Below are positions 1,975 to 9,331 of a stretch of 64,000 bases of DNA, in pieces. Both the position numbers and the translations under genes were made by a program. The stretch comes from Coxiella endosymbiont of Amblyomma sculptum. GTDB taxonomy: Bacteria > Pseudomonadota > Gammaproteobacteria > Coxiellales > Coxiellaceae. Below the pieces are notes generated by a model. The model saw only the letters and a program-made list of their open reading frames with translations. It was not told the DNA's origin and did no database searches. How positions within the stretch are numbered: the stretch's first letter is position 1; each line of letters opens with the position of its first letter. Location of the stretch: assembly GCF_009883795.1 (NCBI RefSeq), contig NZ_CP033868.1, positions 555,501 through 619,500 of the forward strand, written 5' to 3'.

Positions 1975-2268
1975 TCAATCTCCAATTTTACCACGAGAAC
2001 TTGTTGATCTGGTGAGACCAAGAAAACTAATTAAAAACCAAGCGGTCTCTATGATACCAGACGACAAATTCCAAGAAAAATATAAAGAGATCAAAATAAA
2101 TCCCGAACCCAAAAAATTTAATAGGGAATAAGAAACATCTCTCTGAGAGAGTTTATCTATATGTAACAGAAAATAAGCCAATAAAATTAGAAAAACTCCA
2201 CTGATTCCAATAACGTTAAATTCCGTAGCCAGGTGTTGAATTGAATCTTTCTTCACAAAACTATACAT
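1975..2268 (-). CDS. CBU_0592-family small membrane protein
   Basis: About 97 residues with three likely membrane segments: around GVFLILLAYFLL, then FLGSGFILISLYFSW, then IIETAWFLISFLGL. The spacing and the LAYFLL...LLNFLGS...LYFSWNL...IIE..W.LIS pattern match the small membrane family named after Coxiella CBU_0592, whose function is unknown. ATG 2268 is preferred over an upstream TTG at 2286 because it starts closer to the first membrane segment. Its 5' end overlaps the end of the DUF2797 gene by 16 bases, so the two are probably translated together. The family call is from memory of the motif pattern. Confidence 0.7.
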   Translation of the reverse strand: MYSFVKKDSIQHLATEFNVIGISGVFLILLAYFLLHIDKLSQRDVSYSLLNFLGSGFILISLYFSWNLSSGIIETAWFLISFLGLTRSTSSRGKIGD

Positions 2269-3080
2269 TCGACATTGTAACCACAATATTTCCGTACATT
2301 AAATATCCCTGTATTTAAAATAAGATATTGTCCTTTTATTCCCAAAAGAGTTCCTGAAATGACAGGTGTTTTCTCAAGAGAGAGGACTTGTATCTTGCTT
2401 GGATACTGCAATACAGGATAACTCAATTGAGTGATTGCAGTTGTTTTAAACTTATAGATATCCCTTCTGCTAAATTGGCATATTGTTTTAGAGAGGGAAA
2501 AGTTAGCTCTCTTCAACAAAATATTTTTTTCCGAGATTAGATCTAGTTTTTCAATATCATTCTGCAACATTCGTCTCCAATCGGTACGGTCAGCCACGAA
2601 GGATTTTAGGACGACTTCTATTGTTCCCGCTTGAAAGCGATTCTTGGTCTGGAACATAGGTACCGCTTGAATAGCGCCTTGATCAATCCAACGAGTCGGT
2701 ACTTGTGTTGTTTGGGTAATCCCTACTTTCAGTTTCGCAGAATTTGCTAAATAAACTATATGATTTTTGTGGCAATGAGCGTGTGCCCAGTCATCAACAG
2801 GACATTCTCCTTTTTCGATTCGACAACACTCTGGTCGAATGATGCAAAAATTGCATTCCCACAGTCGCCGTAAGCAAGGATAACAAAACCCCTGTTGAAA
2901 ACTTTTATTGGTTTCACGTTTGCATCGAATGCAATGGATTGACCCTGTATGACTAAGTAAAACAGATTTACCCAACCAAGTGTTCAAGAAAACTTTTCCG
3001 TACTTAGAATGAGTGAGATAATATTCTACGGGTGTCTTTAAGACGCTTACTAATTTGTTTAGACAAATACGAATTTTCAT
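2253..3080 (-). CDS. DUF2797 family protein
   Basis: 275-residue protein of the DUF2797 family. The N-terminal third carries paired cysteines (CIRCKR, GFCYPCLRRLWECNFC, later CC and C) that look like metal ligands. The middle has the segment VYLANSAKLKVGIT followed by PTRWIDQGA, typical of DUF2797, which I recall as distantly related to GIY-YIG folds; that link is tentative. The function is not established. It overlaps the preceding ferredoxin gene by four bases (ATGA) and the following membrane-protein gene by 16 bases, which argues for a three-gene transcript. The last residues (YCGYNVECIVL) are cysteine-containing and intact. Confidence 0.75.
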   Translation of the reverse strand: MKIRICLNKLVSVLKTPVEYYLTHSKYGKVFLNTWLGKSVLLSHTGSIHCIRCKRETNKSFQQGFCYPCLRRLWECNFCIIRPECCRIEKGECPVDDWAHAHCHKNHIVYLANSAKLKVGITQTTQVPTRWIDQGAIQAVPMFQTKNRFQAGTIEVVLKSFVADRTDWRRMLQNDIEKLDLISEKNILLKRANFSLSKTICQFSRRDIYKFKTTAITQLSYPVLQYPSKIQVLSLEKTPVISGTLLGIKGQYLILNTGIFNVRKYCGYNVECIVL

Positions 3081-3442
3081 TTTTTCTTGAACAATATATA
3101 TTCTTCTACCGGCTGCTCATTAAGAAAGTGTTTTTGGATAATTAGTTCGATGACATTGGGGCTGCACGAATGGTACCAAACGCCATGTGGATACACTATC
3201 GCAATTGGCCCCTGGCAACAAATTCTCAGACAATTCGCTTTCGTTCGATAAATTCCTCCGGTACCGACTAAGCGCAATTCGCTCAATCGCTTTGTTAAAT
3301 ATTCCCACGATTCTAACCCTGTGCTTTTTTGACAGCATCGAGGGCTTTTCTGATCACAACATAAGAAAATATGGTAACGAATGTTGTCTAATTGCAAAAT
3401 ATCCAATTTGCGCCGTAATTTTTCATTCTCAAGAACAATCAT
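3077..3442 (-). CDS. Thioredoxin-like [2Fe-2S] ferredoxin
   Basis: 121 residues. The body begins YHIFLCCDQ, then RCCQKSTG, and later KANCLRICCQGP, followed by IVYPHGVWY. This is the layout of the (2Fe-2S) ferredoxin domain of the thioredoxin-like type, with an N-terminal pair of cysteine sites and a C-terminal C...C pair holding one cluster. Extra adjacent cysteines (CC three times) are unusual and leave the exact ligands uncertain. The leader of about 20 residues is charged and may be partly non-native. Starts at ATG 3442, 81 bases after the nadA start, same strand. Electron partner unknown; the Nfn-like fusion and FdxA nearby make a redox role plausible. Confidence 0.75.
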   Translation of the reverse strand: MIVLENEKLRRKLDILQLDNIRYHIFLCCDQKSPRCCQKSTGLESWEYLTKRLSELRLVGTGGIYRTKANCLRICCQGPIAIVYPHGVWYHSCSPNVIELIIQKHFLNEQPVEEYILFKKK

Positions 3443-3523: not shown

Positions 3524-4495
3524 CTAGAAATTCAGCATTCGTTGTAGTGGAACTGTAGCTTTTGCTATAATTTCGGAATCGAGCAAAATTTCGTTGCTTC
3601 CACTGAGTAAGGATCGTTCTAAATCTGGTAGAACGTTCATAGCCATCCAAGGACAGTGTCCACAACTTCGGCAGGTTGCTCCTTGACCAAGGGTGGGTGC
3701 TGCGATAAAAATCTTATGAGGCGACTGTTGTCTCATTCTGTAAAGAATTCCTTGGTCAGTTGCCACAATGAAAACAGTATTAGACAACTCTTGTGATGCT
3801 TGCAACAATCGAGATGTAGAGCCGACCACATCAGCTTGTTCAATGACAGAAAGAGGCGATTCAGGATGCACCAAAACCGCCGCTTTCGGATGTTCTTTTC
3901 GCAAAATCATCAAAGCTTCTCCTTTAAATTCCTCGTGCACAACACAAGATCCATTCCATAAAATTAAATCCGCATCTGTCCTTTTTTGAATATAATTTCC
4001 GAGATAACGGTCAGGAGCCCACAGAATCTTTTCATTCTCTTGATCAAGAGCGTTAATAATAGACAACGCATTTGAAGAAGTCACCACCCAATCTGCTCGT
4101 GCTTTAACCGCCGCTGAGGTATTGCAGTAGACTACTACTGTTCGATCGGAATGTATATCACAAAATTGTGAGAATTTCTCGATAGGACAAGAAAGATCAA
4201 GCGAACAAGTCGCTTTTTTGGTAGGCATTAAGACTCGTTTCTTCGGGCTTAATATTTTTGCGCTTTCACCCATAAAACGTACACCAGCCACAACCAAAGT
4301 TGTGGCGGTTTGTGCCATTCCAAATTTTGCCATTGCTAGGGAATCACCTACAAAACCTCCTGTACTATCTGCTAGAAACTGAATTTCAGGGGGAGTGTAG
4401 TAATGGGAAATTACGACAGCATTTTCTTTTACGAGCTGGTCGGAAATACGCATAATATCCCGATTAAGTTTGGAATTTGACGACAATGTAGACAC
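3524..4495 (-). CDS. nadA: Quinolinate synthase A
   Basis: Condenses iminoaspartate with dihydroxyacetone phosphate to quinolinate, an early step of de novo NAD synthesis, using a [4Fe-4S] cluster. 323 residues, somewhat shorter than the E. coli enzyme. Cysteines are visible at [18 protein letters not shown] and [15 protein letters not shown], matching the three cluster-ligand regions; the substrate region [13 protein letters not shown] is at the N-terminus. Starts with GTG, with no in-frame ATG nearby and no clear Shine-Dalgarno sequence. The upstream spacer holds short repeats of ATATTCT (4522-4535) that could supply an AT-rich -10. nadB and nadC are not in the window. Confidence 0.95.
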
Positions 4496-4635: not shown

Positions 4636-7600
4636 CTATATCCGTTCGATTTTTTCTGTTGAAAAAAGATAATCTAACCATAAATTGGACAGGATTTCCT
4701 GAGTTCGATTCTGAAACAAACGTTCCTCAATATTTCTAATGTCCACCAATTCTATCGGCTGATATTGCCAAGAGCAAGAAAAAACAGCTTTCGTTCTTTG
4801 ACCGGTACAGGGATCAATTTGCCATTGCAGACATTGAGCACATACTCCTTTCATCATGCATTGCATTGGACCATAAACTGAAGCGATAAATTCCACTTCT
4901 GGTTTAAAATATTTTCTCAGAACGCCCTGTCGACCGTTTTGAATTGTACGCAGAAGATGAGTTGAACCAATTACATAAACAAGATCAATCTCGTGCAAAG
5001 GAATAGGACATATTTCTACTGCACGACAGCGCAAAAAGGAAAGGAATTCTTTCCATTTCTGCTCATCTTGTGAACGGAGTAGTCTATTTGTTTCAACTTT
5101 TGTTTCTTGAGTCAATTGAAAAGCGATATCGCTCGATTCTAATTCTTTTGGAGAATACGTCCCTTTACTTTTTTCTATTAGGGTCATATGAAACACACGA
5201 TGTCCTGCTTTTTGCAAAGAATTTCCTAAAGAATATGCATGCAAGACAGATAGAAAACCTCCAATAACTATTATATTTTTCTGACCGTCTTGAGGAATCG
5301 TTTTACAGCAACCCGTTGGACCCATAACAGAAATTGGTTGACCTGGCTTTAAAGTGGCTATCAATCGAGAGCTAGCGCCTTGCTCTAAAATTACAAAACT
5401 TATGACATCTGGGTCAGAACATTGATTCACGTTGATCAACGCTAAGGCTTCAGTTTGCAAACGTGTACCATTTACAACCGGAGACAAACTTTCGAAATTT
5501 TGTAATCGATAAAATTGCCCTATCTGAAAATTGCGAGCTGCTATTGGTGCTCGAATTTGACATTCTACCGCTGAAGGTGAACACCTTCGAATTGCTGTTA
5601 TCCTTGATTCGAAGAGTGCAGCTATTTTGGCACGGAATTTTTTGTATTCAATCTCATTGTCCTTACCATTTTCGTTTTCGTTATTGATTTGAAAATGTAG
5701 CTTGTGTTTAAGTGCCTCTACAATTTTGGGATAAGTTCTCTTTGCGGAAGCGATAGCTTTCACAACACTTCCACGAAAAGTAGGGTGCGTGTCTCCTAAA
5801 AAACTCACGAGATGCCCGTCTACTGTATAGTTTGTGAAAGGTCCAAAATCTGAAGTTTTGCAGTGACTTTTCTCACTGACTGCTTTCAATTTTTTGTCTT
5901 GTAATTCAAACCGCTTATAACTAAATCCTTCACAAGAGAAAGTACCGCTGTGTTCATAAGCATAAGCTATATTAGGTCTAACTCCTGTGGCTACAAAAAT
6001 AGAACGTGCAGGTAGGATGTGTTTTGTTGTTGTACGAACCCCTCTTTTGTTCGCTGCGTGTTGTTGACATATTAAGGCCACTGTCCAACCGTAGGTATCT
6101 ATTTTTACAGATTCCGGTTCTAAATTCTCAGCGTAGTAAATTCCCTCTTCTAGAGCCTTAGCAATTTCGTCATGATTGTATTTATAGGCAGGAGATTCTT
6201 TCATAGCTCTTCGATAAATTATAGTTACCCCGCCCCATTCGCGAATAAGTTTAGTAAAGTCAACCGGACGATTTTCTTTTTTTGCTCGTAGACGTTCTTC
6301 ACACACTGTTCTCCCATGATCAAGGAATTCATCGAGAATTTTTAAAGATATTTTGTCAAATCGAGATCTCGACATTTTTTTTCCAAAATGTTCAACAAGT
6401 GTCTCATATCGTTGAATTGTTTTCTCCACTTGAGCAATGTAATACGCTTGCACTTCCGTAGCTGTGTCGATAGCTGTTAATCCGCCTCCGATTACCACCG
6501 CAGGTAAACGAACTTGTAGATTAGCTAAACTTGAAGACTTAGCGGAACCTGTTAATTGTAATGTCATTAAAAAATCATTAGCTTGACGCATGCCAGGCGC
6601 TAAACTGTGAGGAATTTTCAGCTCTTTAGGCAAACCAGAACCTACAGCTATTGCTAAATGGTCCAATCCCAAACACCATACATCTTCAACCAATAAAGTA
6701 CCTCCAAAACGAACGTTACCGAATATTTGAAAATAAGGGCGTCTTAATAAACTAATATAAATTAATTTTAGGAAATTTTTATCCCAACGAACAGTAATTC
6801 CGTATTCAGCCACTCCTCCAAAACCGATCATTGTTCGATCGTCTAATCGTTCTTGCAAATCTTTGTAATCCCGAATGGGATTGGTAATAAATGTAGAAGG
6901 TAAGGGTTCAATTTTCAAACCATCTGTTCCCACAACAGCAAATCCTTCCATAAGAAGAAAGTGTGCTAGCGAAAATCCGGCAGGACCCATGCCCATAATT
7001 AGGATTTTCTTTCCATTATAAAATTTGGGAAGATATTGTTTTTGCCTCAAAGGGTTCCATCGTGTTAGCAGATCGTAAATCTCTACTCCCCAAGGTAATT
7101 CGAGTACATCTGTTAAAATTCGTGTTTCGGTTTGGGGAATATTGACTGGGTCCTGTTTTTGATAAATACAGGATTTCATGCAATCGTTACAAATACGATG
7201 TCCAGTCACAGGACACATTGGATTATCAATCATAACAACAGCCAGAGCGGCAATTGTACGACCTTGTCTTTTCAAGAAATGCATTTCAGAAATTTTCTCA
7301 TCCAAAGGACATCCTGTTAGCATTTCACCTAAAGGATTAATTTTTATGTTTCGATGAAAATCGTTCTTTTTTGCAGGAAATCCTTTAGAGCAAAAATCAT
7401 TGTCATTTTTGTGACAATAAACGCAGTAATTAATATGATCCATTATTTCACGTCGATTCATTCGAGAATCAGTCAAAGTAAATCCATCTCGATGACGACG
7501 CAATTCCGAAGGTCCTTCTAAACGATTTATCGTATCTCCGGCAACAGAAATTGTTTCCACCAGATTTCCATAGTCTAGATGTTTGGGCAAATGAAAAATT

Positions 7601-8199
7601 GTCCATCCTTGCACTGCTTTCTTTCCGTGCAGTTGAGTTATTGCAGCAATGCACCATAAGATCAGTTTTTCAATAAGTACCGCGTTATCTTCGGACGCTC
7701 GTAATAAACTTTGTCCCCAGTGAGCAACAGCCCATTCTCGATCGGATTGGTCCAATCCGTTTTCTTTTAGTTGATCACTTACCCACCGATCCAGTAGTGA
7801 AAAATTTTCAACCAAATCCGACTTCTTAAGCATTCGACACGCTCGACGTAAAACATAGAATTTCTTGAAATCGGAGATAGTATTTTCTCTCAAAGTTACG
7901 ACACGCAAATGTTCGATATGTTTCTCGATAGAGAAAAGATTGGAAACAAAATTTTCCAATAAAGATCCACAAGAAATAATCAATTCACTAATCGATTTAG
8001 ATCTCGAAGATTTTGATTCTCCTTCTTTACGATAGAGTAAAAGTTTTTCGTACAGAACCGCATCTTTATCTTTCAAAAAAGCTAAGAACGCAGCGTCCAA
8101 TTTTTGAAGTCCGCTTGTTGTAAATAATTCCGGAAAATTGAACCCTGTTAGGATCAGTGATAGATTATCCATAAGAAAAGCTATTTTCTTCTGCGACAT
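4636..8199 (-). CDS. NfnB-NfnA-like fused flavin/iron-sulfur oxidoreductase
   Basis: A 1187-residue protein with three parts. Residues 1-250 are helical and unlike anything I recognise. Residues 255-350 hold eight cysteines (259, 262, 270, 297, 329, 337, 340, 344), fitting two [4Fe-4S] clusters as in GltD or NfnB. Residues 395-850 are a pyridine-nucleotide/FAD module with GMGPAGFS near 403 and a second nucleotide site GGGLTAIDTATE near 571. From about residue 880 follows a PyrK/NfnA-like reductase: flavin segment QIGQFYRL, GPTGCC, and near the end a [2Fe-2S] motif with cysteines in QCMMKGVCAQC and a later FSC. The likely role is soluble electron transfer between NAD(P)H and ferredoxin, possibly bifurcating. 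Substrates are inferred, domains are seen. Long proteins of this kind are, as I recall, annotated only as pyridine nucleotide-disulfide oxidoreductase. Confidence 0.8.
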   Translation of the reverse strand: MSQKKIAFLMDNLSLILTGFNFPELFTTSGLQKLDAAFLAFLKDKDAVLYEKLLLYRKEGESKSSRSKSISELIISCGSLLENFVSNLFSIEKHIEHLRVVTLRENTISDFKKFYVLRRACRMLKKSDLVENFSLLDRWVSDQLKENGLDQSDREWAVAHWGQSLLRASEDNAVLIEKLILWCIAAITQLHGKKAVQGWTIFHLPKHLDYGNLVETISVAGDTINRLEGPSELRRHRDGFTLTDSRMNRREIMDHINYCVYCHKNDNDFCSKGFPAKKNDFHRNIKINPLGEMLTGCPLDEKISEMHFLKRQGRTIAALAVVMIDNPMCPVTGHRICNDCMKSCIYQKQDPVNIPQTETRILTDVLELPWGVEIYDLLTRWNPLRQKQYLPKFYNGKKILIMGMGPAGFSLAHFLLMEGFAVVGTDGLKIEPLPSTFITNPIRDYKDLQERLDDRTMIGFGGVAEYGITVRWDKNFLKLIYISLLRRPYFQIFGNVRFGGTLLVEDVWCLGLDHLAIAVGSGLPKELKIPHSLAPGMRQANDFLMTLQLTGSAKSSSLANLQVRLPAVVIGGGLTAIDTATEVQAYYIAQVEKTIQRYETLVEHFGKKMSRSRFDKISLKILDEFLDHGRTVCEERLRAKKENRPVDFTKLIREWGGVTIIYRRAMKESPAYKYNHDEIAKALEEGIYYAENLEPESVKIDTYGWTVALICQQHAANKRGVRTTTKHILPARSIFVATGVRPNIAYAYEHSGTFSCEGFSYKRFELQDKKLKAVSEKSHCKTSDFGPFTNYTVDGHLVSFLGDTHPTFRGSVVKAIASAKRTYPKIVEALKHKLHFQINNENENGKDNEIEYKKFRAKIAALFESRITAIRRCSPSAVECQIRAPIAARNFQIGQFYRLQNFESLSPVVNGTRLQTEALALINVNQCSDPDVISFVILEQGASSRLIATLKPGQPISVMGPTGCCKTIPQDGQKNIIVIGGFLSVLHAYSLGNSLQKAGHRVFHMTLIEKSKGTYSPKELESSDIAFQLTQETKVETNRLLRSQDEQKWKEFLSFLRCRAVEICPIPLHEIDLVYVIGSTHLLRTIQNGRQGVLRKYFKPEVEFIASVYGPMQCMMKGVCAQCLQWQIDPCTGQRTKAVFSCSWQYQPIELVDIRNIEERLFQNRTQEILSNLWLDYLFSTEKIERI

Positions 8200-8425: not shown

Positions 8426-8734
8426 CTACAAATCTTTTAGTAACTCTAGCAGTTTTCCGTTTTCAAACAATTCACCGACGATGTCTTTTCCCCCAATGAA
8501 TTTTTTCTTAACATAAAGTTGTGGGATTGTAGGCCAGTTAGAGAATTTTTTGATTCCTTGACGAAGCGCATCTGATTCTAAAACGTTGAAACTTTTAAAA
8601 TTGACCCCGCATTGGTGCAAAACAGAAACTACATATTCAGAAAACCCGCATTGAGGAAAATCAGGGGTTCCTTTCATATATAGCACAACAGAACTGCTTT
8701 CTATTTGTTGTCTAATCACTTCTTGAATGTTCAT
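8426..8734 (-). CDS. grxD: Monothiol glutaredoxin Grx4
   Basis: 102-residue monothiol glutaredoxin that carries and delivers [2Fe-2S] clusters with glutathione. Hallmarks: active site PQCGFS, the WPTIPQLYV cis-proline segment and the GGKDIV glutathione site, in the normal spacing and at slightly below usual length. A good Shine-Dalgarno (AGAGGT) lies 8 bases before ATG 8734. The gene is divergent from fdxA, and downstream on the same strand lie the Nfn-like fusion and nadA, both iron-sulfur proteins. The 226-base spacer 8200-8425 after it holds no gene I recognise. Confidence 0.95.
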   Translation of the reverse strand: MNIQEVIRQQIESSSVVLYMKGTPDFPQCGFSEYVVSVLHQCGVNFKSFNVLESDALRQGIKKFSNWPTIPQLYVKKKFIGGKDIVGELFENGKLLELLKDL

Positions 8735-8995
8735 GGTAACCTCTTTATTTCTAAAATTTTTAATTCTTCTGAGGATTCTAAATTTTTAAGTAGAAGCTCG
8801 TAGAATGGATTGGAAACAATGCGACGCAGAAAACAACCATACAACGAATCTTGGTTCAACTTTTGCCCCTACATATTACGATACTTCCTTTTGTCTTCTA
8901 AAAAAGACAGTGGCGTCAATCCTTCTTTTTTGTTACATTGAAAAAACTCATTGCACGAATTCTTTAAAGTTTAATTGCCGCGGAAAAATTATAGC

Positions 8996-9331
8996 ATGAC
9001 TTTTGTTGTAATCGATAATTGTATACGGTGTAAATACACAGACTGTGTGGAAGTCTGTCCGGTAGATTGTTTCCGAGAAGGGCCAAACATGTTGGTTATC
9101 GATCCAGACGAATGCATCGATTGCAATCTTTGCGTTTCGGAATGTCCGGTAGACGCTATATTTTCTGAAGATGATTTACCTAAAGAGAAAAAATCTTTTC
9201 TAAAACTCAATGCGGAACTTGCAAAACAGTGGCCTGTCATTGTTTCTAAGAAAGAAGCCTTATCGGATGCAGAAGATTGGATAGATATTCATGACAAACT
9301 TCGATATCTAAAACGTGGATGGTCCAAATAG
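8996..9331 (+). CDS. fdxA: 7Fe ferredoxin FdxA ([3Fe-4S][4Fe-4S])
   Basis: 111-residue ferredoxin with one [3Fe-4S] and one [4Fe-4S] cluster. Cysteines 9, 12, 17, 21 and 25 lie in [18 protein letters not shown], and 40, 43, 46 and 50 in [12 protein letters not shown], the Azotobacter FdI pattern. The C-terminal helix region ([11 protein letters not shown]) is present. The start is ATG 8996 because the family begins MTFVV; an in-frame TTG seven codons upstream adds foreign residues. Ribosome binding site weak (GGAA). Its natural reductase is not known; the fused Nfn-like enzyme across the divergent spacer is a candidate by context. Confidence 0.95.

Follow-up and report, generated by a model that had tools for sequence, protein, structure and literature searches.

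The 64,000-nucleotide stretch analyzed here (the window; positions 555,501 to 619,500 of contig NZ_CP033868.1 from the Coxiella endosymbiont of Amblyomma sculptum) carries a gene that fuses a GltD/NfnB-type module (the B half) to a PyrK/NfnA-type module (the A half) behind a new N-terminal domain. The product is a conserved, under-described GltD/PyrK-type oxidoreductase with a testable role. Its distribution among bacteria is complementary to that of the ferredoxin reductase Fpr, and we consider the chances about even that the fusion is a soluble NADPH:ferredoxin reductase standing in for the absent Fpr, akin to NfnII of Pyrococcus.

The fusion gene is a single unbroken open reading frame (ORF) of 1187 codons on the minus strand; a reading of 4636-8199 on the plus strand was ruled out, as no frame is open there. 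The first-pass annotation, which was made from the letters alone, had called the 1187-residue ORF without giving its strand, and the call holds. The source genome, that of a Coxiella-like tick endosymbiont, is very reduced (622,921 bp in a single contig, about 623 kb); that of CRt, a Coxiella-like tick endosymbiont of the same genus, measures 1,733,840 bp. A homology search found the fusion in 26 of 38 relatives, and it is intact in 9 of the 10 genomes of the genus. The ratio of nonsynonymous to synonymous substitution rates (dN/dS) relative to CRt was 0.02-0.34, showing purifying selection on every domain. An AlphaFold2 (AF2) model built on a 58-row alignment reached a mean predicted local distance difference test score (pLDDT) of 86.4 and a predicted template modeling score (pTM) of 0.90. 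Homologs, selection and model together place the ORF far beyond chance. Two variants were seen elsewhere: in G006 (Coxiella-like, 1.0 Mb; L130 6923-10436) a frameshift cuts the N-terminal domain off from the B half, and G442, a member of the class, has two full-length copies (C1:325106-328531 and C9:102771-106232).

The best library match was NCBIfam NF005128 (PRK06567), with 612.8 bits and an E value of 1.1e-183 over residues 21-979, so that the N-terminal domain is covered. The curated equivalog cut-off of this model, 1072 bits, was reached neither by the window protein nor by any of 398 genomes sampled across the phylum. Its database name, 'putative bifunctional glutamate synthase subunit beta/2-polyprenylphenol hydroxylase', is a guess transferred by similarity, and a literature search turned up none that mentions PRK06567 or this name, nor any on the fusion family. 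The PRK06567 model found the family in 17 of the 398 phylum genomes, and a purpose-built profile (A2) found it in 71 of 369 class-level genomes. At least 559 candidates were counted in genome_contigs, among them Methylococcus, Acidithiobacillus, Myxococcus, Pyrinomonas, Planctomycetota, Nitrospirota and Chlorobiota. The family is thus old, widespread and uncharacterized; the novelty claimed at first pass belongs to the N-terminal domain, while the gene as a whole sits in a broad family already modeled. On the window protein Pfam recognized only Pyr_redox_2 (9.4e-11) and a sub-threshold Fer4_20, and GltD models scored 33-62 bits against cut-offs of 448-483.

Carriers of the fusion were depleted in Fpr. 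In the class sample, E. coli-type Fpr (threshold E<=1e-15) was present in 6 of 71 carriers and in 114 of 298 non-carriers (p=1.9e-7). The deficit persisted with one genome per family (2/30 carriers, 43/122 non-carriers, p=0.001). The phylum sample gave 1/17 and 224/381, respectively (p=1e-5), and 1/10 and 55/78 by family (p=3.6e-4). All of these tests correct for phylogeny only in part. A control gene, glpK, showed no such deficit, being found in 12 of 30 carriers and 10 of 50 non-carriers. The E. coli Fpr query matched nothing in the source genome or in any of the 23 genomes of its family, and no FNR-fold NAD_binding_1 protein is encoded in the source genome. Apart from the fusion, the only clear flavoproteins of the disulfide-reductase type there are dihydrolipoamide dehydrogenase (Lpd) and thioredoxin reductase (TrxB), both with Pyr_redox_2; the same search also returned L-aspartate oxidase and two weak FAD-protein matches. 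Beside the fusion, no NADPH:ferredoxin reductase was recognizable in this genome.

The B half of the model matched the large subunit of Pyrococcus furiosus NfnI best (Foldseek TMt 0.82, E 1e-21), and sequence profiles agreed. Its cluster motifs are YCx2Cx7Cx26CP and GHRICx2Cx3C, and all 58 alignment rows share residues C259, C262, C270, C297, C337, C340, C344 and E358. All eight cysteines between residues 259 and 344 had been put forward as ligands of two [4Fe-4S] clusters. The fold and a cluster-type cysteine set are borne out, but the full set of eight was rejected because C329 is variable (present in 34/58 rows); as E358 is invariant, the ligands are likely seven cysteines and one glutamate, by analogy with known enzymes. 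The pairing, on the pattern of NfnB and DPD, would be C259, C262, C270 and C344 for one cluster and C297, C337, C340 and E358 for the other. The FAD/NAD(P) core proposed earlier agrees with the NfnI match. Y662-R663 of the NADPH site is invariant in the 58-row alignment, as is R471 (58/58), which aligns with the arginine of GIPEFR, a position assigned by alignment only. In Nfn this arginine lies at N5 of the bifurcating b-FAD (PMC6405883). A helical insertion at residues 583-655 is missing from NfnB and from PRK12779.

The A half matched the NfnI small subunit both in sequence (hmmsearch to 5jca_S, 3.6e-16) and in fold (TMt 0.86, best match). With its four invariant cysteines, it agrees with the PyrK/NfnA-type reductase with a [2Fe-2S] site described at first pass, and the comparison of AlphaFold models with NfnAB suggested there recovered the NfnI fold in both halves. 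Several motifs of Nfn are altered. The [2Fe-2S] motif reads QCMMKGVCAQC in place of the Asp-type DGTGMCGxCR, the ERxPxT strand of the a-FAD is replaced by TEALALI (EGLALT in clade I), and the GGGxGxA NADH loop is replaced by GGFLSVL. This loop divides the family into three clades. It is intact only in clade I, as GGGLGNA (Myxococcota, Methylococcales, Acidobacteriota and others); a second clade has AGxWGAA (Acidithiobacillus, Ectothiorhodospiraceae and others); the eroded type (clade III), a 14-row clade with support 99, contains the window protein. Among six pairs of Coxiella-like genomes, the NAD subdomain had the highest dN/dS of all domains in 5 of the 6 (0.16-0.48); in the more distant pairs dS approaches saturation. 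Identity in this subdomain was lowest or joint-lowest in most pairs (51-53% in those with the window protein), and the [2Fe-2S] and other Fe-S segments were mostly the most constrained. As read from the alignments, the NAD(H) pocket of the A half is eroded in the Coxiella clade.

The N-terminal 250 residues, modeled alone, formed a helical domain (pLDDT 90, pTM 0.78). They had no Pfam match, and Foldseek against 350,542 PDB chains returned no match below E 4.4; a weak match to oxysterol-binding protein (E 0.05) was put down to chance. By a profile of the domain (A4), all 8 carriers tested have it as the first part of the fusion, and it was absent from 50 of 50 fusion-free genomes and from G054, a carrier of PRK12779. 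The domain is thus specific to the fusion family, confidently predicted and without a solved counterpart, in line with the new helical front of about 250 residues noticed earlier.

Nfn (NfnAB; P. furiosus NfnI 5JCA, T. maritima 4YLF) shares with the window protein both halves, their fold, cluster-ligand residues and the b-FAD arginine. Unlike Nfn, the window protein is a single chain with B before A, has the N-terminal domain and the helical insertion, carries Cys for Asp at the [2Fe-2S] site, and lacks ERxPxT and an intact NAD loop; identity is 16-20%. Nor does it have the published Nfn motif spacing RCx2Cx4Cx3CPV and GRVCPQExQCx3C (PMC6405883). The reversed, fused order remarked on in the first-pass annotation is present but not new: it is that of Pattern C fused Nfn, in which the A domains come last and some 200 residues are added (PMC6405883). 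An example is PRK12779 (L102-L109), which has the same order of N-extension, B and A. A profile comparison (hhalign) aligned the two families over columns 242-1157 only, at 24% identity. Homology between the N-terminal extensions was therefore rejected. PRK12779 also retains an Asp-type site (VDATGMCGAC) where the window protein has four Cys, and a very long branch separates the two in the tree. The layout is, on these alignments, common to Pattern C, with an N-terminus that is not homologous and a distant kinship.

For the proposed function, NfnII and Fpr are the parallels. P. furiosus NfnII (Xfn, 5VJ7) matches the B half in sequence (81.9 bits), and its small subunit has also lost the NADH site; this enzyme is a simple NADPH:ferredoxin reductase (PMC8097209). 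Unlike the window protein, NfnII has two subunits and no N-terminal domain. E. coli Fpr has the function proposed for the fusion and a complementary distribution, and the A half has an FNR fold (2xnj, TMt 0.64). Fpr differs in being a 248-aa protein with one FAD and no clusters.

Table 1. Features of the fusion gene and its neighbors, in window positions
Feature	Position	Strand	Basis
Whole fusion ORF, 1187 aa	4636..8199	-	ORF call, homologs
Family-specific all-helical N-terminal domain (residues 1-250)	7450..8199	-	AF2, Foldseek, profile search
Predicted two-[4Fe-4S] domain (residues 251-394): C259 C262 C270 C297 / C337 C340 C344 / E358	7018..7449	-	Invariance, weak Fer4_20, NfnI-L alignment
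GltD/NfnB-type FAD + NADPH module (residues 395-835): GxGPAG 403-408, R471, VIGGG 569-573, Y662-R663	5695..7017	-	Pyr_redox_2 9.4e-11, NfnI-L fold, invariance
Helical insertion in NADPH module (residues 583-655)	6235..6453	-	Profile-comparison gap; model helices H574-605, H616-642
PyrK/NfnA-type half (residues 860-1187): FAD barrel, NAD-type subdomain, [2Fe-2S] domain	4639..5622	-	hmmsearch, fold
Eroded NAD(H) loop (residues 979-990), IGGFLSVLHAYS instead of GGGLGNAVLFS	5230..5265	-	Clade alignment, tree, dN/dS
Predicted [2Fe-2S] site C1114-x5-C1120-x2-C1123-x18-C1142	4774..4860	-	Four Cys invariant 58/58; dN/dS 0.02-0.24
nadA (quinolinate synthase), downstream neighbor	3524..4495	-	NadA 3.8e-101
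grxD (monothiol-type glutaredoxin), upstream neighbor	8426..8734	-	Glutaredoxin 6.2e-19; adjacent in Coxiellaceae loci
fdxA-type (7Fe-like) ferredoxin, divergent neighbor, candidate electron partner	8975..9331	+	Fer4 + DUF3470

The neighbors of the fusion are listed in Table 1. In Coxiellaceae loci grxD precedes the fusion and fdxA is divergent; in the window, fdxA probably starts at an ATG inside the ORF given. In CRt, UBA1530 and G006 bolA lies between fdxA and grxD. It was not detectable in the window genome at 8735-8974, and a remnant suspected there by eye was rejected for want of tblastn support. Downstream of the fusion, the window, CRt and G006 all have the gene for quinolinate synthase, a [4Fe-4S] enzyme. 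The window copy is intact; that of CRt (L023 13841-14780) is broken up into two ORFs of 160 and 100 aa, and NAD synthesis may differ between the symbionts. Between nadA and a gene for a DUF2797 protein (2253-3080, minus strand; E 2e-86), kept near the fusion in several Coxiellaceae loci, lies a cysteine-rich ORF of 121 aa (3077-3442, minus strand). It has no Pfam match and a cysteine pattern that by eye resembles a thioredoxin-like [2Fe-2S] ferredoxin; the CRt copy is frameshifted. Outside Coxiellaceae, one Acidithiobacillus locus (L064) has fdxA 22 bp upstream of the fusion on the same strand.

If the fusion is an NADPH:ferredoxin reductase, NADPH would dock on the GltD/NfnB-like half and reduce its FAD, from which electrons would pass through the two [4Fe-4S] clusters to ferredoxin. 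In Coxiellaceae the acceptor would probably be the neighboring FdxA, and reduced ferredoxin could then serve iron-sulfur and radical-SAM enzymes, two of which, MiaB and NadA, have genes nearby. The A half would keep its [2Fe-2S] cluster, probably in an internal redox role, and the N-terminal domain may be a dimerization or partner-docking module. This scheme is inferred, from the cofactors and the pairing of their ligands to the electron path, the partner, the reaction and the place given to the N-terminal domain; what was observed is the domain architecture and fold, along with conservation, distribution, the deficit of Fpr and the pattern of selection. The earlier proposal was electron transfer or bifurcation among NADH, NADPH and ferredoxin. 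Its NADH part is weakened by the erosion of the NAD loop, which lies in the least constrained subdomain of the protein, and by the absence of ERxPxT and the Asp ligand; a simple path from NADPH to ferredoxin fits better, with support from the anti-correlation with Fpr.

Several observations weigh against this role. A plain reductase has no need of a conserved A half. Fpr is evidently often absent for other reasons, since 184 of the 298 fusion-free genomes also lacked the E. coli type at our threshold, and six carriers hold both proteins. YumC and the adrenodoxin-reductase type were surveyed in the source genome only. No operon was conserved family-wide in the 10-kb flanks of about 80 loci, where the recurring context was limited to the fdxA/grxD(/bolA) cluster of Coxiellaceae and the one Acidithiobacillus fdxA. 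Finally, Fpr was not found in G006, where the fusion is frameshifted and most neighbors are intact; the frameshift may be a lesion in the gene or come from the assembly.

One alternative is true flavin-based bifurcation, as in NfnAB. NADPH would reduce the b-FAD, one electron passing over the [4Fe-4S] pair to ferredoxin; the other would reach a high-potential acceptor by way of the [2Fe-2S] cluster and a-FAD, with NAD+ as that acceptor in clade I and another in the Coxiella clade. The invariant R471, the conservation of both halves and all three cluster sites, with the [2Fe-2S] segment among the most constrained, and the retention in clade I of the GGGLGNA loop and of an EGLALT strand near ERIPLT all fit such a scheme. 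We nevertheless think it unlikely: Cys stands in place of the Asp ligand, ERxPxT is gone, and clade III has an eroded NAD loop; aerobes are common among the carriers (Methylococcus, Myxococcus, Coxiella-like symbionts), and in them bifurcation to NAD+ is less expected; and NfnII, whose site is similarly degraded, shows simple NADPH:ferredoxin reductase activity (PMC8097209). It also seems doubtful that the fusion supplies electrons to a dedicated enzyme or substrate other than ferredoxin, as GltD does for GltB and the GltD domain for the uracil site of DPD, with the N-terminal domain docking the partner. GltD-like modules do work with unrelated partners (PMC8097209), the new N-terminal domain is confined to this family, and grxD, bolA and nadA in Coxiellaceae could hint at a dedicated role in Fe-S assembly; yet no partner gene is conserved alongside the fusion across phyla, and the anti-correlation with Fpr suggests a general role. 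A decaying remnant without function, to which the relaxed NAD subdomain and the frameshift in G006 might point, is very improbable: all 1187 codons are open in a genome of 623 kb, purifying selection is strong elsewhere in the protein, all cluster residues are kept, and copies are intact in nearly all genomes of the genus.

The complementary distribution suggests a directly testable function for a family whose database name was guessed, and in how many bacteria reduced ferredoxin is made without Fpr is a practical question for iron-sulfur and radical-SAM metabolism. A broader proposal, which we offer tentatively and rate as unlikely, is that the family constitutes an unrecognized general kind of bacterial NADPH:ferredoxin reductase. 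Its members, which occur in about one fifth of the sampled class-level genomes and in several further phyla, might then bifurcate with an acceptor other than NAD and supply aerobes with low-potential ferredoxin, under the control of the new helical domain. If the fusion is indeed a ferredoxin reductase, it would be, in tick symbionts with tiny genomes, the visible candidate for the supplier of low-potential electrons to iron-sulfur and radical-SAM enzymes.

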